Below, in pieces: positions 3-27,252 of a DNA stretch of 32,525 bases. Under the pieces are notes generated by a model. That model was not told the DNA's origin and did no database searches. It saw only the letters and a program-made list of their open reading frames with translations. The first letter of the stretch is position 1. Every line of letters begins with the position of its first letter. The position numbers were made by a program, and so were the translations under genes. Origin of the DNA: Bacteroidales bacterium (GTDB taxonomy: Bacteria; Bacteroidota; Bacteroidia; Bacteroidales; JAGONC01); contig JAGLWB010000419.1 in the NCBI GenBank assembly GCA_023133655.1, positions 1 to 32,525 of the forward strand, in the 5' to 3' direction.

Positions 3-3000
3 CTACTGGCTATCGACCGAATACACCGGCAGCTGAATAAAAAAAGTAGTTCCAACGCCTTCTTCCGACTCGAACCATATTTTTCCTCCCGAATCGAGAA
101 TGATGCTTTTAACAATAGCGAGCCCCAGGCCCATTCCGCCTGTTTTGGTCGTAAAGTTGGGTGAAAAAATTTTATCTGCCTGGTCGCGCGAAATACCAAT
201 GCCATTATCAGTAACCTTGATCAGGTAATGATCAGCCGTTTGCTGTTCAATGGAGATTTCAATCATCTCATCTTCTGAATCCTTCTTTGCCTGGATAGAA
301 TTTTTAAAAAGATTATTGAACACTTGCAGCATTTGTTTTTTATCGGCATAAACATAATAAAGATGATCGTCCGGCTTAATGAACCGAAAATCAACATGAC
401 GCGATTCCTTAAAGAGATCGACTGACGCTGTGATGACTCGGTCAATTTCAATTTTTTCATACATTGATTGGGGCATCTTTGCAAAATCAGAAAATTCAGA
501 AGCTATCACAGAAAGATTATCAATTTGTTGGATGATTGCTTTAGAAAATTTCTTTAACCGCTGATCCCAGTCTGGTGCTTGCTCGTCCCAGGCTTTTTGT
601 AAATATTGTGTACTAAGTTTCATCGGGGTTAGCGGATTTTTTATTTCATGCGCAACCTGTTTTGCCATCTCCCGCCATGCGCTTTCTCTTTCTGATTGTG
701 CCAACAATTCGGCACTTTGTGCTAATTTGTCAATCATCCGGTTGTATTCAATCACCAGATTTCCTATTTCATCTTTCCTAACCCATTTAATTTTTTCATT
801 TGGGCGCCCAAGTTTTAATTTTCTAAGCTTATCTCTGATTAATTGCAAAGGAAAGGTAATGTAATTGGAAATAAGCAGCATCGTAAGTATTGAAATGGCG
901 ATAAGAATGATGTAAATATTTGTAAAGGCAATCATAAATGTCGAAATCTCCTGCCTGAGCTCTCCCTCTCTTGCAAAATAGGGTAAATTCAAATAGGCGA
1001 TCAGCTCATTACGGTTGTTCCGAAAAGGTACATAGGCTGAAAGGTAGTCATAAACGCCAATTTTCTCCTGGTGGATAAATAGTGTTTTGTTGTAATGGGC
1101 AAGTTGGTTAAAAGCAACTGCATTCATTTTTGTTGAAATCAGACCCTCCTTAAATATTTCAGGCCTGGAGGAGGCCAATAGATTCCCATTAATGTTGTAA
1201 ATATTGATGTCGGAGAAAAACACCAGGGAAAACTTAGTAAGCAAACTTTCAAGATAATCTTCCATATCGGGTGAAAGGCCAGGTGTGTCGGCAAGTTTAT
1301 GTTCTATTTCAATCAAAACAGAGTGGGCTTTTTCGCTCAGGGCATCCAGGTTTTTATCATTATTAATACCAATAATATAATAAAGCGATGAAATGCCGAT
1401 AACCAGAAACGATACCAACATAATTGAAACGATTGCTACCTGCATTCTTGTACGAAAATTCAATTCTTTTTTGACAAAAACGATCGAAAAATTAGAAACG
1501 GCCAAAAATATCAGGATATAGATGCCATAAAAAATTAACAAAAACGAAAAGGGAGCCAGGATCTCAATGAAGCTTTGCTTCTTTAAACTAATAATCACAT
1601 TTGTGGTTTCATCCGCTTTATAATTTAAGTGGTCATAGCCATTCCTATCAAAAAATAAAAAATCATCTTCCAGTCCACCATAAACAGATCCTTTGATGCT
1701 ATAAAAATACTTCCCTACACTTTTTACAAGTTCGCCTTTGCCGTAAATAGCATAGGAATAATTCGTGAGATCAATAAAACTGCTGGCTTTTTTGTCAACC
1801 AGTAGTTCGGGATATCCCAGTGCCTTTGGAACATACTTTGAATAGAGTTCAATATAAACATTCACAGGGTAATCGGGATCGTCTAAATGCTCTCCAAAAG
1901 TAAGTGCGGCAATATAATTAACGTCATCCGAGCCATCATCCAGGTAAAAAAGCCCCGGGCTGGCAGTCGGCTCACCAAGGCGGTTAATGACATCTTCAAA
2001 ATAATCATAACATGCGATGATATAATTCTCCGGCTGAATTTCAAGAACCCTTTGAGAATTGCATATTGTAAGTTGGAAATGATAGCTTGACCGGAATGGG
2101 TAAAGGTAATTATCAACGATATACTCTATGGTCCTTTCTTCCTGATCATCATATAACAGTGCGTTGCGAAGATTTTTGGCAAGTACTGTGTCGGCTAAAA
2201 GGTTTTTTTCAACATCATTAAACATATATTCAATGATTTTGTCTCTTTCTGTTGTTAGCCTGACTGCCATGAGTTTTCTTTCTTCCTGCTCTTTTATCCT
2301 TTCAAATTTATGAAGAGTATAAGTAGAAAACACGGCAAAAATAATCATGTTGAAAACGACATAATAGTAAGAAAATCGCTTGATTCTCCTTTTACGAACG
2401 TACCACAATGAAAAAAGATATATAAATATGAAAAAAACGTAGAACACTTCAATCCTGCCGGTTTTGAAACAGAAAACAGTGCAGGCCACCACAAGTGCAG
2501 TAATCAATATTATAGTATATGACCTTGTTGATGCACTCAGGTAATATATGAAGTCAACAAGTTTCTGGGAAAAAATATAAAAACCCAGCAATAAAGTAGC
2601 TACTGCTATAATCCCAAGGTAGCTTTCTGTTGTTAGCCCAAAAACATTAATTAACTTCAGGGAAATACTCGAATCGATAATTAGTCCTTTGAAGAGGCTG
2701 ATTAACAGACCATATCCCAGCAAAATTATCAAAAAGAGAACAAAAGAAACCGTGTATCTCTTTAAAGCAGAAAAGGTACTTATTCTTGGATTTGTAAGAA
2801 TAAGGGTTGAAAAAGCATAGGCAATAAATAGGAAAACGAAAGCATTAATGATCAGGTCACCCAATGAAGGTAGCATGGTTGACGACCCATAAAATTCAGG
2901 GCTAAATAGGGCCGATTGGTATAGTGCATGCGGAATATTGAAATGTGCGATCAAAAATCGTATGATCACAATATCAATGACAAAGGCAAAGAATAACACC

Positions 3001-3743
3001 CATCGTTTCTTAAAAAACGTTTTGAAGTATTTATAGAGCAACAGAGTGAAAGCAAAAAAAAGCAGCAGGCTGACGAGATAAAGGCAGAAAAGAATATTTT
3101 CCTGATAGGGGTGCAATGGTATATGCTCCTGGAAATCAAGAGAGAACAAGTATTGCTGGTCAATTGAAAAAATTTCATATTGGCTTCCTCCTTCAAAGAT
3201 TTCTGCACTTGGTGGAACAGGAAATGCCTTCTGAAATTCATTTACCAGGTAATCATTTTCATAGGCATAATCATTTTTTATAAGAATTAAACCAATGTAT
3301 GTTTTCTTTCCAACAGGCTTCATTATGATTTCAAACCACCCGTTCTTAAAATGATGAACTCTTTCAGAAAAAAAACGAGGCTCGAGTCTTTCCGGCGCCG
3401 GAACAACATTCTCAGACCAAAATTCCAGTGTTTCATTATCATAAATAAGAACAATAATCCCTTCTTTTTCATACAATCCCTCATACGCCGTTACATTGCC
3501 AAAATTATTGTTATCATCCCGTGCAATTTCCTTTTGAAGCAAATCTATCAGTAGTCCCTCTTTTTCATGAAGGGCCTTCTCAAGCTTTGAAGCAATTTGT
3601 TCGGGTTGATTATTTTTAACAAATACAAAATTGAGAATAATGGCAAGCATCAAAAAAACAAACGAGAGAGAAGCCGTAGCAATAATATTTTTTTTGTTTT
3701 GGTCTGACATGTTAAAAAACCGGTCTATATTACTGATAATCAA
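3..3743 (-). CDS. Large multi-TM sensor histidine kinase (NtrY-like: membrane domain, HAMP, HisKA, HATPase_c)
   Basis: ORF of 1246 aa; many N-terminal hydrophobic helices; H-box 'AWREMAKQVAHEIKNPLTPMKLS'; N-box 'NNLFKNSIQA'; G-boxes 'DNGIGIS' and 'GGMGLGLAIVKSII'. Confidence 0.92.
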   Translation of the reverse strand: MIISNIDRFFNMSDQNKKNIIATASLSFVFLMLAIILNFVFVKNNQPEQIASKLEKALHEKEGLLIDLLQKEIARDDNNNFGNVTAYEGLYEKEGIIVLIYDNETLEFWSENVVPAPERLEPRFFSERVHHFKNGWFEIIMKPVGKKTYIGLILIKNDYAYENDYLVNEFQKAFPVPPSAEIFEGGSQYEIFSIDQQYLFSLDFQEHIPLHPYQENILFCLYLVSLLLFFAFTLLLYKYFKTFFKKRWVLFFAFVIDIVIIRFLIAHFNIPHALYQSALFSPEFYGSSTMLPSLGDLIINAFVFLFIAYAFSTLILTNPRISTFSALKRYTVSFVLFLIILLGYGLLISLFKGLIIDSSISLKLINVFGLTTESYLGIIAVATLLLGFYIFSQKLVDFIYYLSASTRSYTIILITALVVACTVFCFKTGRIEVFYVFFIFIYLFSLWYVRKRRIKRFSYYYVVFNMIIFAVFSTYTLHKFERIKEQEERKLMAVRLTTERDKIIEYMFNDVEKNLLADTVLAKNLRNALLYDDQEERTIEYIVDNYLYPFRSSYHFQLTICNSQRVLEIQPENYIIACYDYFEDVINRLGEPTASPGLFYLDDGSDDVNYIAALTFGEHLDDPDYPVNVYIELYSKYVPKALGYPELLVDKKASSFIDLTNYSYAIYGKGELVKSVGKYFYSIKGSVYGGLEDDFLFFDRNGYDHLNYKADETTNVIISLKKQSFIEILAPFSFLLIFYGIYILIFLAVSNFSIVFVKKELNFRTRMQVAIVSIMLVSFLVIGISSLYYIIGINNDKNLDALSEKAHSVLIEIEHKLADTPGLSPDMEDYLESLLTKFSLVFFSDINIYNINGNLLASSRPEIFKEGLISTKMNAVAFNQLAHYNKTLFIHQEKIGVYDYLSAYVPFRNNRNELIAYLNLPYFAREGELRQEISTFMIAFTNIYIILIAISILTMLLISNYITFPLQLIRDKLRKLKLGRPNEKIKWVRKDEIGNLVIEYNRMIDKLAQSAELLAQSERESAWREMAKQVAHEIKNPLTPMKLSTQYLQKAWDEQAPDWDQRLKKFSKAIIQQIDNLSVIASEFSDFAKMPQSMYEKIEIDRVITASVDLFKESRHVDFRFIKPDDHLYYVYADKKQMLQVFNNLFKNSIQAKKDSEDEMIEISIEQQTADHYLIKVTDNGIGISRDQADKIFSPNFTTKTGGMGLGLAIVKSIILDSGGKIWFESEEGVGTTFFIQLPVYSVDSQ

Positions 3744-3853: not shown

Positions 3854-4738
3854 TTAATCCCTTTTTATAATAAAGATCAAGCTTGAATATTCATTTTGGT
3901 TTTTCTTTGCCCTCATATTGGAAAGAAGTCCATTCTTTGCAGCTGTAAAATAATTTATCTTACCCCTTTTATATTTTTCACTCAGCATACTCACATAAAA
4001 TGCATCTAGTTTCATCGGAAGTATTTTTGCAATTACCATGCCGTGATTTCGAAAAAGCATTGCTATTGAGTCTTTTGTAAAATGCGATAGGTGTCGCGGA
4101 ACGTCGTAAGCAGCCCAGTGCTCTCCATAAATTTTTGCATCCATGGAATTACAATTGGGAACTGCAACGATTAAAATGCCATCTTTTTTCAATATTCTTT
4201 TTACCTCTTTTACCCTGTCGATTAAATCCGGTACATGTTCGAGTACGTGCCACATAGTGATAACATCAAAGGCCCCGTCCGGAATCTTCTTCAATGCAAC
4301 CTCCTCACGAATATCCAAAGAGTATCTGTTGATCGCTGTTTTTCTAACAAGTTCATCCGGTTCTATGCCAACGGTTTTCCATCCTTTTTTCTGAAACAAT
4401 TTCAACAATTCACCCGAACCGCAACCAATATCCAAAATAGAACCCGTTGACTTAAAGGCTTGTACAATATTATACTTTCTGTCCTGGGTGAATTTTCTGG
4501 CCAACAGATAAATTTTATTAATAAATCCTTTCTTAGTGCCTGAGTGGGAAATATAACTTTCTGATTTATAATATTTTCCCAGTTCACCGGTAAATGGCCT
4601 GGGATTAATAAAACGGAATCCACATCCTGTGCATTCAACAATGGTAAATATTTGTTTACTGAGAAAATGATCTTTGCAATCAAGGTAATGGGTAAACTGG
4701 TCCTCTCCACAAATTATACAGCTCTCTATTTTTTCCAT
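3854..4738 (-). CDS. Class I SAM-dependent methyltransferase with N-terminal Cys-rich (zinc-ribbon-like) segment; start trimmed to the MEKIESC Met
   Basis: SAM motif 'SILDIGCGSGELLKLFQKKGWKTVGIEPD', 'FDVITMWHVLEHVPD'; N-terminal CIICG...CTGCGFRFINPRP. The supplied ORF starts at 4762, but its first residues (MFHVEQ) are translated parS DNA. Confidence 0.88.
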   Translation of the reverse strand: MEKIESCIICGEDQFTHYLDCKDHFLSKQIFTIVECTGCGFRFINPRPFTGELGKYYKSESYISHSGTKKGFINKIYLLARKFTQDRKYNIVQAFKSTGSILDIGCGSGELLKLFQKKGWKTVGIEPDELVRKTAINRYSLDIREEVALKKIPDGAFDVITMWHVLEHVPDLIDRVKEVKRILKKDGILIVAVPNCNSMDAKIYGEHWAAYDVPRHLSHFTKDSIAMLFRNHGMVIAKILPMKLDAFYVSMLSEKYKRGKINYFTAAKNGLLSNMRAKKNQNEYSSLIFIIKRD

Positions 4739-4745
4739 AATTTTT

Positions 4746-4761
4746 TGTTCCACGTGAAACA
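4746..4761 (+). promoter_or_regulatory. parS: parS site (ParB/Spo0J-type centromere), TGTTCCACGTGAAACA
   Basis: Exact 16-mer TGTTCCACGTGAAACA read from the sequence; identical to the widely conserved bacterial parS form. Confidence 0.85.
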
Positions 4762-4765
4762 ATAC

Positions 4766-6637
4766 TTACCTACCAAGGTATACCAATAATACAGAAATAT
4801 CGGCCGGTGATACTCCGCTTATCCTGGAAGCATGACCAATTGTATTGGGTTGTAACCTGTTAAGTTTCTCCCTGGCTTCATACGATAAGGCAGGTAATTT
4901 ATGGTAATCAAAATTCTCCGGGAGTTTAAGGTCTTCCATTTTGGATAACTTATTAGCAACTTCGCGTTCTTTACTAATGTATCTATCGTACTTCAATTGT
5001 ATCTCTGCTTCCTCAATCACCTCTTTATCGAATTCGTTACGTTTCCTTAAAAACTCATTAAATCCGGGAATCGCTTCAATCAAACCACCAATCTCAACCT
5101 GCGGGCGTAATAAAATATTAGAAATTTTTTGCTTCTCCTTTATTTTATCAGTTCCCCGATCAGTTAAGTACTTATTAATTTCTTCCGGGAGTGTACTTTT
5201 CTTTTTTATAAATTCGATTAGCCTATCAATGCGGTTCCTTTTATCCTCAACCCGCATCATTCTTTCTTTGCTGGCGAGTCCAATCTCGTATCCTTTTGGG
5301 GTTAACCGCAGATCTGCATTATCCTGCCTTAATAATATCCTGTATTCAGCGCGAGAAGTAAACATACGGTAGGGTTCGTCTACTCCTTTTGTAATCAAAT
5401 CATCAATTAAAACACCTATATATGCATCAGACCTGGACAAAATAAAATCAGACAAGCCATTCAATTTCCTGTTGGCGTTAATACCTGCCATTATTCCCTG
5501 GGCAGCAGCTTCTTCATATCCGGTAGTTCCGTTTATCTGCCCGGCAAAATATAAATGCTCAACCAAACGCGTTTCCATTGTATATTTAAGCTGTGTTGGG
5601 GGAAAATAGTCATATTCAATGGCATATCCGGGCCTGAATATCCTTGCATTTTCAAATCCCTCTATTAATACAAGGGCTTTGCATTGTATATCCTCAGGTA
5701 ATGATGAAGAAAATCCATTAAGATAAACCTCTACGGTGTCCCATCCTTCAGGCTCTACAAACAATTGATGCCGGTCTTTATGTGAAAACCTGTCAATTTT
5801 ATCCTCAATTGACGGACAATACCTGGGTCCCGTTCCTTTTATCCGGCCAATGAACATTGGTGATCTGTCAAAACCAGTTCTCAGGAGATCATGAACTTTT
5901 TTGTTTGTATAGGCAACCCAACAGCTTTTTTGATTTTCCAGTTTTGGAGTATCTATAAAAGAAAACTTCCCGGGAACCTGGTCACCTTTCTGTTCTTCCA
6001 GCCTGGAGTAATCAATGGATCGGCCATCAATTCTCACAGGTGTTCCGGTTTTTAGCCTGGCTGATTCAAACCCCATAGAATTGAGATTTTCGGTCAGTCC
6101 GACAGACGGTTTATCGCCAATTCTTCCTCCTCCAAAACTTTTTTCCCCAACATAAATAATTCCATTTAAGAAGGTGCCATTGGTAAGGATAACCGCTCCG
6201 GCAAATATTTCTAATCCCATTGAAGTCTCAACCCCAATCACCCTCCCATCCTTTGTCAAGATACGAATAACCATATCCTCCCGAAAATCGAGGTTTGGTA
6301 TTTTCTCAAGTTCCAGGCGCCATTCTTTTGAAAACAACCATCGATCGCTTTGTGCACGGGGGCTCCACATTGCAGGGCCTTTCGACTTGTTTAACATTCT
6401 GAACTGGATCATGGTTTTATCGGTAATGATTCCCGAATAACCACCCAGAGCATCAATTTCCCTAACTATTTGCCCCTTTGCCACTCCACCCATTGCCGGG
6501 TTACACGACATTTCAGCGATAGCTGTCAAGTTCATTGTAATGAGCAACACATTTGACCCGAGGTTCGCAGCAGCTGCCGCGGCTTCGGCACCAGCATGCC
6601 CGCCTCCAACAACAATTATATCGTATTTCCCTAACAT
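4766..6637 (-). CDS. mnmG: tRNA uridine-5-carboxymethylaminomethyl modification enzyme MnmG (GidA)
   Basis: 623 aa; FAD motif 'YDIIVVGGGHAGAEAAAAAANLGSNVLLIT'; 'SCNPAMGGVAKGQIVREIDALGG'; 'GQINGTTGYEEAAAQG'; 'RAEYRILLRQDNADLRLT'. Confidence 0.98.
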   Translation of the reverse strand: MLGKYDIIVVGGGHAGAEAAAAAANLGSNVLLITMNLTAIAEMSCNPAMGGVAKGQIVREIDALGGYSGIITDKTMIQFRMLNKSKGPAMWSPRAQSDRWLFSKEWRLELEKIPNLDFREDMVIRILTKDGRVIGVETSMGLEIFAGAVILTNGTFLNGIIYVGEKSFGGGRIGDKPSVGLTENLNSMGFESARLKTGTPVRIDGRSIDYSRLEEQKGDQVPGKFSFIDTPKLENQKSCWVAYTNKKVHDLLRTGFDRSPMFIGRIKGTGPRYCPSIEDKIDRFSHKDRHQLFVEPEGWDTVEVYLNGFSSSLPEDIQCKALVLIEGFENARIFRPGYAIEYDYFPPTQLKYTMETRLVEHLYFAGQINGTTGYEEAAAQGIMAGINANRKLNGLSDFILSRSDAYIGVLIDDLITKGVDEPYRMFTSRAEYRILLRQDNADLRLTPKGYEIGLASKERMMRVEDKRNRIDRLIEFIKKKSTLPEEINKYLTDRGTDKIKEKQKISNILLRPQVEIGGLIEAIPGFNEFLRKRNEFDKEVIEEAEIQLKYDRYISKEREVANKLSKMEDLKLPENFDYHKLPALSYEAREKLNRLQPNTIGHASRISGVSPADISVLLVYLGR

Positions 6638-6703
6638 TAATGATTAAAGGTGTATAAAGTATAAAAAAATGGAATTAAATCTCAGATTCAACCTTGATTT
6701 TAT

Positions 6704-6719
6704 TGTTTCACGTGGAACA
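6704..6719 (-). promoter_or_regulatory. parS: Second parS site, inverted relative to the first (TGTTTCACGTGGAACA on +)
   Basis: Exact reverse complement of TGTTCCACGTGAAACA; lies in the mnmG-ybeY intergenic gap. Confidence 0.85.
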
Positions 6720-6723
6720 ATCG

Positions 6724-7161
6724 TCAGGTCAACGGAGGGCGTAAAGATAGGCATTTATCTTCTGCCTCTCTCATTTCCCTCCGCTCAGCATCGGTACTAT
6801 CTTTGCCTCCCATAAGGTGTAAAATTCCATGAATTATAACCCTATGAAGTTCATCGCTGATACGAACCTTATATTCTTTAGCATTGGCCTTTATCCGGTC
6901 AAGGCTAATGTAAATATCACCAGAAATAATCGTTTGCTCCTCCGATTGATTAAATGTTAAGATGTCGGTGTAAGAATCGTGATTCAGGTAGGTGTTGTTT
7001 ATAGCAAGCAAATATTGATCCGGACAGAGAATTATGTTTATGTTGCCCGGGCTATTTCCCCATTTATAAATTATATGCCTAATCCATTCTCTAATTTTCC
7101 TTTTATCGTTAACACGATAAGATACTTCCTCATTGAAAAAAAGAATGTTATTAGTATCCAT
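6724..7161 (-). CDS. ybeY: Endoribonuclease YbeY (rRNA maturation)
   Basis: 145 aa; 'NHDSYTDILTFNQ', 'GDIYISLDRIKANA', 'HRVIIHGILHLMGGKD'; adjacent to mnmG. Confidence 0.93.
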   Translation of the reverse strand: MDTNNILFFNEEVSYRVNDKRKIREWIRHIIYKWGNSPGNINIILCPDQYLLAINNTYLNHDSYTDILTFNQSEEQTIISGDIYISLDRIKANAKEYKVRISDELHRVIIHGILHLMGGKDSTDAERREMREAEDKCLSLRPPLT

Positions 7162-7184: not shown

Positions 7185-7679
7185 CTATGCTTTCTTTTGC
7201 CTCTTCTTAGCCTCTTTACTGTATTCCTCCAGTTTTTTCTTTCTCTGACTTGCTAATTCCTTGCTTATTCCCTTAATGCCATATGTGATTTCTACTTCAT
7301 TGCCCTTTTCATTAAAAACAACCTTGTCGGCGAGTGATTTAATAATAAATATGCCCCGCCCTACATTATTTTCATCTGAATAAGATATATCAGTAGGGTC
7401 GATAACACTCTGAAAATCAAATCCTTGACCTTCATCTTTGATGGTGAAAGATAACTTACCGGGCTCTGCCTTAAATTTTATGCCTATCTCCTTAATGGGG
7501 TTGTTTTTGTTCCCATGAACAATAGCATTATCAACAGCCTCTAGAACAGCAATGGTAATATTTCCAAAATAATGATTGCTAATATTATATCTGTCACAAA
7601 TTTCTTCAATAAAACGTTCAACAAGGTAAACATTTTCTGGGCTGGACGGAATTTTTAATTGCATCTCCTCAAAAATCAT
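7185..7679 (-). CDS. RsbW-like ATP-binding anti-sigma regulatory factor (HATPase_c)
   Basis: 164 aa; 'AVLEAVDNAIVHGNKNNP', 'IKDEGQGFDFQSV', 'GRGIFIIKSLAD'. Confidence 0.88.
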   Translation of the reverse strand: MIFEEMQLKIPSSPENVYLVERFIEEICDRYNISNHYFGNITIAVLEAVDNAIVHGNKNNPIKEIGIKFKAEPGKLSFTIKDEGQGFDFQSVIDPTDISYSDENNVGRGIFIIKSLADKVVFNEKGNEVEITYGIKGISKELASQRKKKLEEYSKEAKKRQKKA

Positions 7680-7685
7680 ATCATT

Positions 7686-10600
7686 TTATTCTTCAAGGTG
7701 GAAAAGGTAATTATTTAATTTTTTCTTATAAAATGGCTTCAATGAAGGTGGAATTGTCTTTAATAACTCAACCTGTTGAGCGTTTATACTTTTATACTTA
7801 AAAAATTCCTCAGGGTTACTAATTTTTTGGTTTTTTGCTTCTCTTGATTCGCGCTTTTCTTCCTCCTTGCGTTTAAGCTCAGCTTTCTCCGATTGTAAAA
7901 GCCTTGTTAAAATATCTCGCTGCCTCATTAGGGTTTGGTTTGAAATCATTTTATTAACGAGGTCTCTTTCTGTTTTTTCCATATCATCAATCATCTTTCT
8001 GGCATTCCCATCAGCACCTACGCCTTCTTCCTTTAATTGATTTAAATATTTTTGGAACTGATTTCTGATCGCCTCTTGCTCTGCAGCCAAACGAGCAAAT
8101 TGTTCGCTTGTTACCTCCCCTCCGGGTAACCCTGTTTTACCCTTTTTCCCTTTACCGCTTTTCATTTGTTCAAGTTGCTTGTTGAGTTGTTCCTGAAGCT
8201 GTTTCATGGTACTTATTGATGAAGCACCCACGCCGGGGTTCGGACAAGAAGAACCACCGCTTGCCATTTGCGACATTTGTTGTTCCATTTGTTCTAACAC
8301 CTCAGATAGTAAAAGAGCAAGGTTGTTAACCGAGGTCATTACCAGTTGCTGGCTGGTTTTGGCCACAGAGATTCTTCGCTGATCTAACGCTTTTAAGGCT
8401 TTCTCAATATTTATATTTACCTCCCTTAACTCCCTGTTAATAACCGGCTTTACCATCACCTGCCTTTTTCCCAATGCAATCAATGAATCCTCTATCATCT
8501 CCATATCATCTTTGAGCTTTTTTTGATTCTGTATAATTTCGAGGTATTTAGGATCACTTCTTTTCACTACACCAACCCGTCCAATAAGGTCTTCCTGGTC
8601 AAAAGAAACCTGTAATAAATTCTCGAGAATTTCTCTTAGAGCATAAATGTCCTCGCCCAAGCCTTGTGCCTGCATAGCACTCATCATATCAAAAAGCTTA
8701 TTACCGAGTTGTCCCATTTTTTCAGAGGCACTCTTTTGTGATTTGGAAGATTTTCCCTTTTTACCCTCCCGGAGGTTTTCCATGCTGTTATCCAACTCCT
8801 CATCAATGCCGGTTTCTTCGCTTTCGGTATCAAAAAATTTATTGGGTTCTTCCAGGTCATTATTTTTCTCTTGCAGGTCGTCCAGGTCCTCTTTTATCTC
8901 ATCAAACTGCTTTTCAATCTCTTCCTGCTTTTCAATTAAACTATCAAGCTCATTTTTTTTTGAATTCTCTGTTTCATCTGATAATTCGTCCTGTTCTTCT
9001 GCCAGTTTTTCAATTTTTTCAATGGTTTCATTTAACTTCTTTTCCAGCTCCAGGCGCTTGAAAAGTTCCAGGCTTCTGTCAAGCTGCTCTTCTATATCCT
9101 CGCTTGTCCATTTCATCTTTTCAAGCATTTCATTCACTTTGTCCTTATCAATTTCTTCCAACATTTTTTGCAGTTCTTCAAATAACTCTTTCATTTCATC
9201 CGTCATGAGCTCTTCAAAAAGCTCCTCTAACCTCCGTTGTTTTTCAATAATCTCTTCATCTAACTTCTTGTACTGTTGCTCTTTTAGGGATCGCTCACTG
9301 TTTTGTTTCTGAATATTCTCAATTCTGTTTTGCAATTCTGCCTGTTTGTCGAGCAGATCCTGTATTTGTTGTTTTTCCTGCCAACTGATGTCGCTTTTTT
9401 CCATCAATCGTTTTGATAGATCGGTTAATTCTTTTTGTAAGGCTCTTATATCCTTCATAGCACTGCGAAGTTCGTCCTTAATATCTGCATTTGTCTGTTC
9501 AACTGCATCATCAATCTCTTCCAGGCTGGGGATTTTAAAAAACATTTTATGTGACTTGCTTGACTTGCTTCCATTAACCCCATCGTTATCCCATACCTCA
9601 AAATAATACTCAATTTCATCACCAGGCATGGCATCAATGGCCGACATATCAAAAAAATGAAAAAATTGTTGATGGTTTAAAGATTTTCTTATGTCAATCC
9701 GAATATTTTGGGTCTTGGCCGATTTTTTTTCGTTTTGACCTCCCTGATGCTTTTTATAGTTAAATGTTAGCGTTGTAAATCCATAATCATCTTTTATAAC
9801 ACCCCGGAAATAAATCCGGTTTTCAAAAACTGAATCATGATATTCTTCAACAACAATCGTTGGATATTGATCCGGTATAACCTTAATCAAATAAAATAAT
9901 GAGTCATTATTAAGTAAAAATTTGTTTCTTGTTTTTACCGAATAAGCGGTGCTTTGATAAAATGTATCAGAATAATTAAATGCATTTGATTTTTTTTTCT
10001 GCAAGTTAATCACTTGATCGTCTACGCTGAATATCAGGGACTCGGTGTCTCTGGTATAAAAACGCCATGATATAACAGAGCCTTCCGGCACAACAACATC
10101 GCCCATATTTTCCACAACCTCGTCTTCTTTTAATATATATGCGGGATAATCCAATTCTATTTCAAAATTAAGAATGATAGGCTTGGGGAAAACTATTATT
10201 TCATATTCCTTTGTATGAACCTTTCCAGCACTAAGAATAAATTTAGTGTTTCTTTGAATGTTTTTAAACCGGTAGTAGTGAGTTATTTTATTCTCTTTAG
10301 ATAGCCGAAAAGAATTTTCCCCTATAGTAATCATAATATGATCAGGGGTTTCGTCTCCTTCTACCTGAACATTCAATATAAAGTCTTCCTGCTGAATCGC
10401 CTTTAGGCTGTCGTTAATGATTATCAGCTCGAATGGTTTTTCTTTCTCAAAATAATCATAATGTTTAACAATCCTTTCTGTTGGGCCGGTTATTATCCCC
10501 GGTGCGGAAACCAGAATAAGAACAATAACAGCCAGGGGGGGCAAAATATATCTGATATATTTCTTATTTCCTGAAAGATTAATTGCGGATGTAAAAGGAA

Positions 10601-11021
10601 TCGGCTGAAGGGCGCTGATTTTTTGATTTATTCCAGCCTCTATCAACTCCTTGCTATACTCGTTGCCAAGTTTTTTCAAATGAAGAGTATTAAGAAGTTT
10701 ATCATCAATTGCGCTGAAATGATCACCGATTATTTCGGCTGCTTGCTCGTGAGAAATAATTCTCCCAATTTTAAATAATTTAAGCACCGGTATCACGATT
10801 AGCTTCCAAATAATGGCGGCGTTTATTATCAGGTACGCATAAAAAACAATTGTTCTCTCAACAATACCAAAGTGGGCAAAATGCTCAAGTATTATCACCA
10901 GGAGATAGAAAACCATGAGGACGGCCAGGCTATAAATAAACCCTTTTAGTACCAGGTTTTTATAGTACTTCCTAATAAATTCATCAAGCTTCCTGATCAG
11001 TACATTGTAATTATCATCCAT
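7686..11021 (-). CDS. DUF4175-type large membrane-anchored coiled-coil protein (start probably MDDNYNVL)
   Basis: Two N-terminal hydrophobic helices, beta-rich middle, long Glu/Lys/Gln coiled-coil C-terminal half. Supplied ORF starts at 11081, but a TAACTTTG-type -7 element (11093-11086, minus) suggests transcription starts near 11080, favouring the internal Met. Confidence 0.75.
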   Translation of the reverse strand: MDDNYNVLIRKLDEFIRKYYKNLVLKGFIYSLAVLMVFYLLVIILEHFAHFGIVERTIVFYAYLIINAAIIWKLIVIPVLKLFKIGRIISHEQAAEIIGDHFSAIDDKLLNTLHLKKLGNEYSKELIEAGINQKISALQPIPFTSAINLSGNKKYIRYILPPLAVIVLILVSAPGIITGPTERIVKHYDYFEKEKPFELIIINDSLKAIQQEDFILNVQVEGDETPDHIMITIGENSFRLSKENKITHYYRFKNIQRNTKFILSAGKVHTKEYEIIVFPKPIILNFEIELDYPAYILKEDEVVENMGDVVVPEGSVISWRFYTRDTESLIFSVDDQVINLQKKKSNAFNYSDTFYQSTAYSVKTRNKFLLNNDSLFYLIKVIPDQYPTIVVEEYHDSVFENRIYFRGVIKDDYGFTTLTFNYKKHQGGQNEKKSAKTQNIRIDIRKSLNHQQFFHFFDMSAIDAMPGDEIEYYFEVWDNDGVNGSKSSKSHKMFFKIPSLEEIDDAVEQTNADIKDELRSAMKDIRALQKELTDLSKRLMEKSDISWQEKQQIQDLLDKQAELQNRIENIQKQNSERSLKEQQYKKLDEEIIEKQRRLEELFEELMTDEMKELFEELQKMLEEIDKDKVNEMLEKMKWTSEDIEEQLDRSLELFKRLELEKKLNETIEKIEKLAEEQDELSDETENSKKNELDSLIEKQEEIEKQFDEIKEDLDDLQEKNNDLEEPNKFFDTESEETGIDEELDNSMENLREGKKGKSSKSQKSASEKMGQLGNKLFDMMSAMQAQGLGEDIYALREILENLLQVSFDQEDLIGRVGVVKRSDPKYLEIIQNQKKLKDDMEMIEDSLIALGKRQVMVKPVINRELREVNINIEKALKALDQRRISVAKTSQQLVMTSVNNLALLLSEVLEQMEQQMSQMASGGSSCPNPGVGASSISTMKQLQEQLNKQLEQMKSGKGKKGKTGLPGGEVTSEQFARLAAEQEAIRNQFQKYLNQLKEEGVGADGNARKMIDDMEKTERDLVNKMISNQTLMRQRDILTRLLQSEKAELKRKEEEKRESREAKNQKISNPEEFFKYKSINAQQVELLKTIPPSLKPFYKKKLNNYLFHLEE

Positions 11022-11195
11022 CTCTTTCCTAACAACGATTATTGTGTCTGTTTGGTGCCCGCTCACATAATAAAACACCAATTGACAAAGTTACAAACAA
11101 AAGCCTTCATACCAATAATTATGATACACCCATCTATTCAATACTTCATTTCCGGGGTGGTATACAATCCCATTAATACCCTTCTTTGTTCATCA

Positions 11196-16048: not shown

Positions 16049-17428
16049 TCAACTTTCGTTCTTCTCTTTCCAAAGTTCTTTAAACGATTTAGGTTGCACT
16101 TCGGGAAGTGCGCGTCCCGGTCCCCACGATTTTTTGAAAAACATGTTCATGGCTAAACTCTTTGACCGCTGACCGGCCATATCAAGAACCCATCTTCTTT
16201 TCATGATATTCTTCCATCCTGTCATGACCATTTTTTCATTAAAAGTTATATGCTTTTTCTTAACTGCCTCGTTTCTGTTATAAAGCAACAATTCATGTAG
16301 ATTAATATTCACCGGACACACCTCTGTACATTTTCCACACAATGTAGATGCAAAACTCAAATGTTTGTAATTTTTCATCCCTTTTAAAAAAGGAGTAATA
16401 ACCGCTCCAATCGGCCCGCTATAAGTAGTACCATATGAATGCCCTCCAATATTTCTATAGACCGGGCAGGCATTCAGGCAGGCACCACATTTTATACAAG
16501 ATAAAGCTCTTCGCTGTTTTTCCTGCTTTAAAATTTCTGTTCTGTTATTATCAATTAGAATAACATGCATCTCTTCAGGACCATCGCTTTCTTTGTCCTG
16601 TCTGGGTCCGGTAACAATCGAATTATAAACGGTCATGCTTTGTCCTGTTCCATGTGAAGCTAAAAGAGGCCAGAAAAGCTGCAGATCTTCCATTGAAGGA
16701 ATGATCTTCTCAATGCCAGCAACTACAATATGAATTCTGGGCATGGAAAAAGTCAACATTGCATTTCCTTCATTCCCGGTAATTGCAACTGCTCCTATAT
16801 CTGCAATAAGGAAGTTAGCGCCTGTAATGCCAGCATCAGCATTAATAAATTTTTCTCTTAATAATTTTCTAACAAATAAGGTAATCTCTTCCGGCGAACT
16901 TTCATCGGAAATGTCAAATTTTTCATGAAACAGCTTTGCTATATCCTCTTTCGACATATGCATGGCTGGTGTAACAATATGATAAGGAGGTTGTTCGGCT
17001 AACTGGACGATATATTCACCAAGGTCGGTTTCAATCGATTCGATGTTGGATTTTAGCAACGCTTCATTAAGTTCTATTTCCTCGGTGATCATTGATTTTG
17101 ACTTAACTACCTTTTTCGATCTGCTTTTTGTTAAAATCCGAATGATTTCTTTTACGGCCTCCCGTTTATTTTGTGCCCAAAATACCTTTCCCCCTCTTTG
17201 AGTAAAATTACTATCAAAATCAATGAGGTATTTATCAAGTCTGTTGATAGTTTTGTGCTTAATAGATGCCGCTTTTTCCCTTGCCAGGTCAAGATTAGAA
17301 AATTGTTTTTCCCCTTCTATTACGGCTTCATCATAGCGCGACATATTAAATTGTATCGTTTGCCGATGACGCAAATCAAACACCTTTTTTTCAACATCTT
17401 CCTTAAATTTTCTATGCATATCTATCAT
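16049..17428 (-). CDS. lutB: LutB-like LUD-domain iron-sulfur protein
   Basis: 459 aa; two Fe-S motifs 'CIKCGACLNACPVYRNIGG' and 'CGKCTEVCPVNINLHELLLYNR'; LUD-type core 'ADAGITGANFLIADIGAVAITGNEGNA'. Confidence 0.88.
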   Translation of the reverse strand: MIDMHRKFKEDVEKKVFDLRHRQTIQFNMSRYDEAVIEGEKQFSNLDLAREKAASIKHKTINRLDKYLIDFDSNFTQRGGKVFWAQNKREAVKEIIRILTKSRSKKVVKSKSMITEEIELNEALLKSNIESIETDLGEYIVQLAEQPPYHIVTPAMHMSKEDIAKLFHEKFDISDESSPEEITLFVRKLLREKFINADAGITGANFLIADIGAVAITGNEGNAMLTFSMPRIHIVVAGIEKIIPSMEDLQLFWPLLASHGTGQSMTVYNSIVTGPRQDKESDGPEEMHVILIDNNRTEILKQEKQRRALSCIKCGACLNACPVYRNIGGHSYGTTYSGPIGAVITPFLKGMKNYKHLSFASTLCGKCTEVCPVNINLHELLLYNRNEAVKKKHITFNEKMVMTGWKNIMKRRWVLDMAGQRSKSLAMNMFFKKSWGPGRALPEVQPKSFKELWKEKNES

Positions 17429-26442: not shown

Positions 26443-27252
26443 TTATTCAGCAAGAATTTTATCATAAAAATCAGAATATGTTTGTATATATGTCTCTTCG
26501 GGTTGGTATTCTAATAATGGTTTTCCCGTTGACCGAGCATATTTTTCCAATTCCGCATTAATATTTTCGCTACCCATAATAAGTGCATCTGAATTGTCGA
26601 TGGCAGCCTTGATCAGGCTTCCATATTCCGGCTTTTTATAGTGGGTAAGGTCAGCATCGGTAATACCGTCCAGCTTAAATTTTTTATAAAAATCCTTATT
26701 TAATGTTTCTTCAAAATCATCGTCATAAAGAGATAAAAACACTTTTGTATCACAAAAAAGAGGATTGTCTTTAAAAGCTTTTTTAACATATAACGGAATA
26801 AGGCTTGTTACCCATCCATGGCAATGTACAACGTCTGGTGACCACCCTAGTTTTTTAATCGTTTCCAAAACACCACGTGAGAAAAAGATAGCCCGTTCGT
26901 CATTGTCTTCAAAAAATTTATCATTTTTATCACGGAAAATGAATTTTCGCTGGAAGTAATCTTCATTATCGATAAAATATATTTGCATTCTGGCCGACTG
27001 GATAGAAGCCACCTTGATAATCAGGGGGTAATCGTTATCGTCGATAATCAGATTCATTCCCGAGAGCCGGATCACCTCGTGAAGTTGGTTCCTTCTTTCG
27101 TTGATATTGCCATACCTTGGCATGAACGTCCTGATCTCTTTACCTTTTTCCTGGATTCCTTGTGGAAGGTAACGCCCAATGGTGCTCATGGGGCTTTCTG
27201 TTAGATAAGGGGTGATTTCCTGATTGACGAATAATACTTTTGTTTTTTCCAT
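26443..27252 (-). CDS. Glycogen/starch synthase-like protein, N-terminal GT5 domain only
   Basis: 269 aa; 'KVLFVNQEITPYLTESPMSTIGRYLPQGIQEKGKEIRTFMPRYG', 'PDVVHCHGWVTSLIPLYVKK'; no C-terminal GT1/GT4-type nucleotide-binding half. Confidence 0.85.
   Translation of the reverse strand: MEKTKVLFVNQEITPYLTESPMSTIGRYLPQGIQEKGKEIRTFMPRYGNINERRNQLHEVIRLSGMNLIIDDNDYPLIIKVASIQSARMQIYFIDNEDYFQRKFIFRDKNDKFFEDNDERAIFFSRGVLETIKKLGWSPDVVHCHGWVTSLIPLYVKKAFKDNPLFCDTKVFLSLYDDDFEETLNKDFYKKFKLDGITDADLTHYKKPEYGSLIKAAIDNSDALIMGSENINAELEKYARSTGKPLLEYQPEETYIQTYSDFYDKILAE

Follow-up and report, generated by a model that had tools for sequence, protein, structure and literature searches.

Paired parS sites at mnmG in a Bacteroidales genome and the association of parS, mnmG and the probable replication origin in Bacteroidota

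Two 16-bp words on either side of mnmG in the window (the whole stretch of DNA analysed, 32,525 nucleotides, corresponding to the entire contig C356 of the draft) are best explained, at a probability of roughly 0.9, as the parS centromere sites of a chromosomal ParABS system, and the segment that carries them as an origin-proximal part of a Bacteroidales chromosome. The ParABS system, its parS sites and their proximity to the origin are textbook knowledge. In this sense the centromere is of the ordinary ParABS kind. The retention of parS and the origin at mnmG throughout the phylum, uncoupled from dnaA and parAB, is less familiar.

Exact parS sites on both sides of mnmG

The sites and the genes around them are arranged as follows:
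3854..4738, minus strand: class I SAM methyltransferase, adjoining mnmG (follows mnmG in 53 loci compared)
4746..4761, plus strand: parS site 1, TGTTCCACGTGAAACA, exact match in the mnmG-methyltransferase gap
4766..6637, minus strand: mnmG (gidA), tRNA modification enzyme (PF01134, E = 8.5e-157), a conserved landmark flanked by the two parS sites
6704..6719, plus strand: parS site 2, TGTTTCACGTGGAACA, exact match in the ybeY-mnmG gap
6724..7161, minus strand: ybeY, conserved gene upstream of mnmG (profile match and conserved order)
7185..7679, minus strand: gene for a HATPase_c_2 protein (anti-sigma-type kinase), part of the conserved block (profile match and conserved order)
7686..11081, minus strand: DUF4175 protein of the conserved block (profile match and conserved order)

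Both words match the 16-bp parS consensus TGTTYCACGTGRAACA exactly, at the positions flanking mnmG given in the preliminary description, which had also placed them outside core coding sequence. Both are intergenic: site 1 lies 4 bp beyond the mnmG stop codon (4766), in the 27 bp that separate it from the likely methyltransferase ATG (4738), and site 2 lies in the 86 bp from the ybeY stop (6724) to the mnmG ATG (6637), 4 bp beyond the former and 66 bp upstream of the latter. The ATG at 4738 was preferred as methyltransferase start because a start at the alternative TTG (4762) would place parS inside the coding sequence. Loci of relatives widely share the gene order DUF4175-(HATPase)-ybeY-mnmG-methyltransferase, and the block is intact in this window. 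Following the methyltransferase, a histidine kinase of 1246 aa (HisKA, HATPase_c; window 3-3743) runs to the contig edge; its orthologue comes after the methyltransferase in several Bacteroidales loci. At 26443-27252 of the window, a 269-aa protein is encoded whose match to glycogen synthase (GlgA) profiles is confined to their first half.

A first-order Markov model predicts 2.3e-5 occurrences of TGTTYCACGTGRAACA for the window and 2.7e-3 for the whole genome, in agreement with the initial judgement that a chance match was unlikely. When up to 3 mismatches are allowed, the window contains a single further match (at 16646), which fits chance. In the own genome (3.76 Mb draft, 428 contigs), these two are the only exact copies of TGTTNCACGTGNAACA, 1.96 kb apart; matches with 1 mismatch number 0 and those with 2 mismatches 5, i.e., the sites are clustered and non-random in placement and not scattered genome-wide. 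That the words might be chance palindromes or transcription terminators is extremely improbable: a 16-bp palindrome near the mnmG stop can form a small hairpin, but no T-run follows the site along the direction in which mnmG is transcribed, the genome-wide expectation is far below one site, and among relatives the 16 bp are conserved and the flanks little. The conservation of parS at mnmG across relatives (see below) refutes this explanation.

The inverted orientation of the two sites, initially put forward as a feature of the locus, is correct for these two copies, since TGTTTCACGTGGAACA at 6704-6719 is the reverse complement of TGTTCCACGTGAAACA at 4746-4761. It is functionally empty, however, because the 16-mer is a palindrome save for one asymmetric base pair and the direction of the copies differs between relatives (both read TGTTCCACGTGAAACA in L100 and G340, opposite in L073), and orientation was rejected as a functional feature.

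The cognate ParB

No parA or parB gene had been recognised in the window, and indeed the single ParA-ParB pair of this genome is encoded on another contig (C57), with ParB directly behind ParA. The chromosomal ParB homologue whose presence was to be verified is therewith at hand:
L017:12431-13243: ParA, cognate ParA of the own genome
L017:13233-14114: ParB (PF02195, E = 1.3e-31; TIGR00180)

The ParB matches solved Spo0J/ParB structures (E about 1e-50). Residues R173 and G201 define a parS-specific ParB, Q173 and R201 the site specificity of Noc (PMC7383237); the corresponding residues of the own ParB are R164 and G192, i.e., of parS type, and this combination is invariant in 30/30 aligned Bacteroidia ParBs. 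The CTP motif reads GERRCKA instead of GERRxRA, a conservative K for R exchange found only here among the 30. Two complete relatives (G423:C1:1993962 and G467:C1:253918) encode an additional ParB-like protein of greater length, in a frame of about 600 aa, which may stem from a mobile element.

By analogy with the family, ParB produced from the parAB operon elsewhere on the chromosome would dock at either parS site, close as a CTP-dependent clamp and slide over mnmG and its neighbours, so that ParA could take hold of the ParB-loaded locus and move the freshly replicated origin region. A contribution of condensin in its canonical form appears unlikely from profile searches: ScpB (PF04079) was found neither in the own genome (G000) nor in 7 other same-order genomes, and in 7/33 genomes searched overall, including some other Bacteroidia. 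Canonical Smc-ScpAB loading at these parS sites is therefore improbable in this organism, or would proceed via something unrecognised. The absence of ScpB in same-order genomes fits the account of Bacteroides caecimuris as an organism without known condensins (PMC10197239).

Linkage of parS to mnmG across Bacteroidota

parS is tied to mnmG in Bacteroidota. The GTDB family to which this genome belongs is small; parS sites are present in 4/5 of its species and adjoin mnmG in 3/3 relatives with an examined locus. At the level of the order, an exact site was detected in 80/119 genomes (none found in 39/119), and in 51 of the 54 genomes for which both a listed site and the mnmG position were available, one lies within 1 kb of this gene, often 3-12 bp beyond the mnmG stop codon. 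For 80 mnmG loci sampled from across Bacteroidota, the GTTNCACGTGNAAC core occurs within 150 bp of mnmG in 63 and on both sides in 38, and the proposed check on whether related Bacteroidota carry parS flanking mnmG thus had a positive outcome in many of them. The association is also apparent when flanking bases are not preselected: the full GTTNCACGTGNAAC core is present in 121/129 CACGTG words located within 150 bp of mnmG ends vs 16/77 elsewhere (0.88 Mb). As the relatives share ancestry, these counts across genomes represent non-independent events. In single-contig or near-complete genomes, parS is found at mnmG in every case in which the position of mnmG was established, the one exception being G348 (25 kb away).

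The position of the sites in the two gaps adjoining mnmG, at short and conserved distance, would also suit operators of mnmG (or of ybeY and the methyltransferase gene) which resemble parS by coincidence. In Pseudomonas aeruginosa ParB represses some parS-adjacent genes (review PMC7022226), which makes regulation as a side effect plausible. As the primary role of the palindromes, however, an operator function is very unlikely: the word fits the ParB consensus (PMC7383237) and the genome has a matching ParB, the same-order sites are mostly downstream of mnmG (56 vs 14 upstream), which is odd for an mnmG operator, and the locus coincides with the skew origin in relatives.

Position of the replication origin and relation to known systems

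Origin positions were fitted in six complete genomes, one of them from the same order, by a two-breakpoint model of the skew at third codon positions, corrected for gene strand (20 places per genome), since raw GC skew of 20-kb samples proved to be confounded by gene direction and was dropped. The fitted skew origin lies 4-242 kb from parS in all six, at a sampling resolution of about 100-250 kb, and is closer to parS than to dnaA in 240/240 bootstraps over the six genomes. The origin-proximal reading of the preliminary description is thereby supported indirectly. What that description did not foresee is that the parS-mnmG block is the origin marker, with dnaA and parAB distant: in the 16 genomes measured, dnaA and parS are 0.37-1.9 Mb apart (mean 0.55 of the half-chromosome, close to random), parB and parS 0.5-2.2 Mb. 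The data support that in this phylum the origin is marked by parS-mnmG instead of dnaA or parAB. In the complete relatives G423 and G467, dnaA is located near the terminus, almost half a chromosome from the skew origin, and a genome start set at dnaA is badly misplaced.

In the own genome dnaA is located at a contig end, and given a draft of 428 contigs the origin position was derived from the six complete relatives. An alternative is that rearrangement has carried mnmG, together with genuine parS sites, away from the origin in this particular organism; heavy rearrangement is seen in chromosomes of the phylum, with a dnaA position that looks random relative to parS. With the skew origin at parS/mnmG in 6/6 complete relatives including the same-order one, and with the DUF4175-ybeY-mnmG-methyltransferase block intact here, such a relocation is very unlikely. 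An origin-proximal position of the parS sites in this genome is accordingly expected by analogy with these relatives.

Clusters of DnaA boxes (at least three boxes in 500 bp) were detected in 11/80 mnmG loci, all of them 1.7-4.2 kb downstream of mnmG, vs 1 in 2.4 Mb of sampled genome, and probably represent oriC in several lineages. In Cytophagales-type loci the clusters occupy a gap of 350-450 bp that follows the methyltransferase gene and a gene with a Big_5 domain; these fixed-gap clusters are good candidates for the oriC of Cytophagales-type Bacteroidota, as judged from sequence. Individual loci with a cluster in the fixed gap, 1.7-2.9 kb past mnmG, are L030, L033, L035, L038, L045, L057 and L067. 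Pairs of DnaA boxes are present about 1-4 kb downstream of mnmG in the complete genomes G299, G472 and G148, and 37 kb from parS, near the skew origin, in G232. The window itself contains 14 DnaA boxes (one mismatch allowed) vs 11.6 expected, i.e., at chance level, and harbours no cluster; the two DnaA-box pairs of the own genome reside on C216 and C255, neither on this contig. The absence of a cluster from the window suggests that the own oriC probably lies beyond base 1 of the window or elsewhere nearby.

In this reading, the parS-mnmG block, unlike dnaA and parAB, stays with the replication origin in the phylum. On balance we favour a phylum-wide, mnmG-anchored unit of origin and centromere (DUF4175-ybeY-parS-mnmG-parS-methyltransferase with oriC nearby), kept together as dnaA and parAB came to occupy what are in effect random positions, and lacking a recognisable Smc-ScpAB condensin in its Bacteroidales form. 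Such a parS-mnmG-ori unit, phylum-wide and independent of dnaA and parAB, would be the addition to present knowledge, and frames the question of what holds ori, parS and mnmG together while dnaA and parAB are free to move. On the practical side, genome records of Bacteroidota often begin at dnaA as the origin, which, on these data, is off by hundreds of kb in most of the complete genomes analysed. As a simple origin marker, the parS-mnmG block is useful for replication-rate estimates from metagenomes and for the orientation of assemblies.

A literature search for parS and mnmG as whole words yielded no relevant paper, although earlier notice (e.g., in the Livny 2007 survey) is possible. Within the phylum, Hi-C analysis of B. 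caecimuris places the parS cluster together with the origin domain, parS and GC skew there define ori, and ori is reported not always to coincide with dnaA; a link of parS to mnmG is not drawn in the accessible part of this report (PMC10197239). For the Flavobacteriaceae Mariniflexile litorale and Algorimicrobium, Ori-Finder and GC skew put oriC at mnmG, and dnaA does not fit the skew in Mariniflexile (PMC11278836, PMC12843772). These are single-genome notes which, in their accessible parts, report no parS, and one figure legend in PMC11278836 swaps oriC and ter.

Noc and its binding site NBS (TATTTCCCGGGAAATA) share with the present system a ParB-family protein acting on a 16-bp palindrome. 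They differ in the core, which is CACGTG here, and in the specificity residues, R and G in the own ParB instead of Q and R (Q173/R201), and an assignment to NBS was rejected. The closest counterpart is the chromosomal parS of ParABS (Soj-Spo0J; consensus TGTTTCACGTGAAACA), with which the sites share the 16-bp palindrome matching the consensus, the few clustered copies, the origin-proximal location in relatives and a cognate ParB with R173/G201-type residues; they differ from it in bracketing mnmG and, in the complete relatives, in lying far from both parAB and dnaA.
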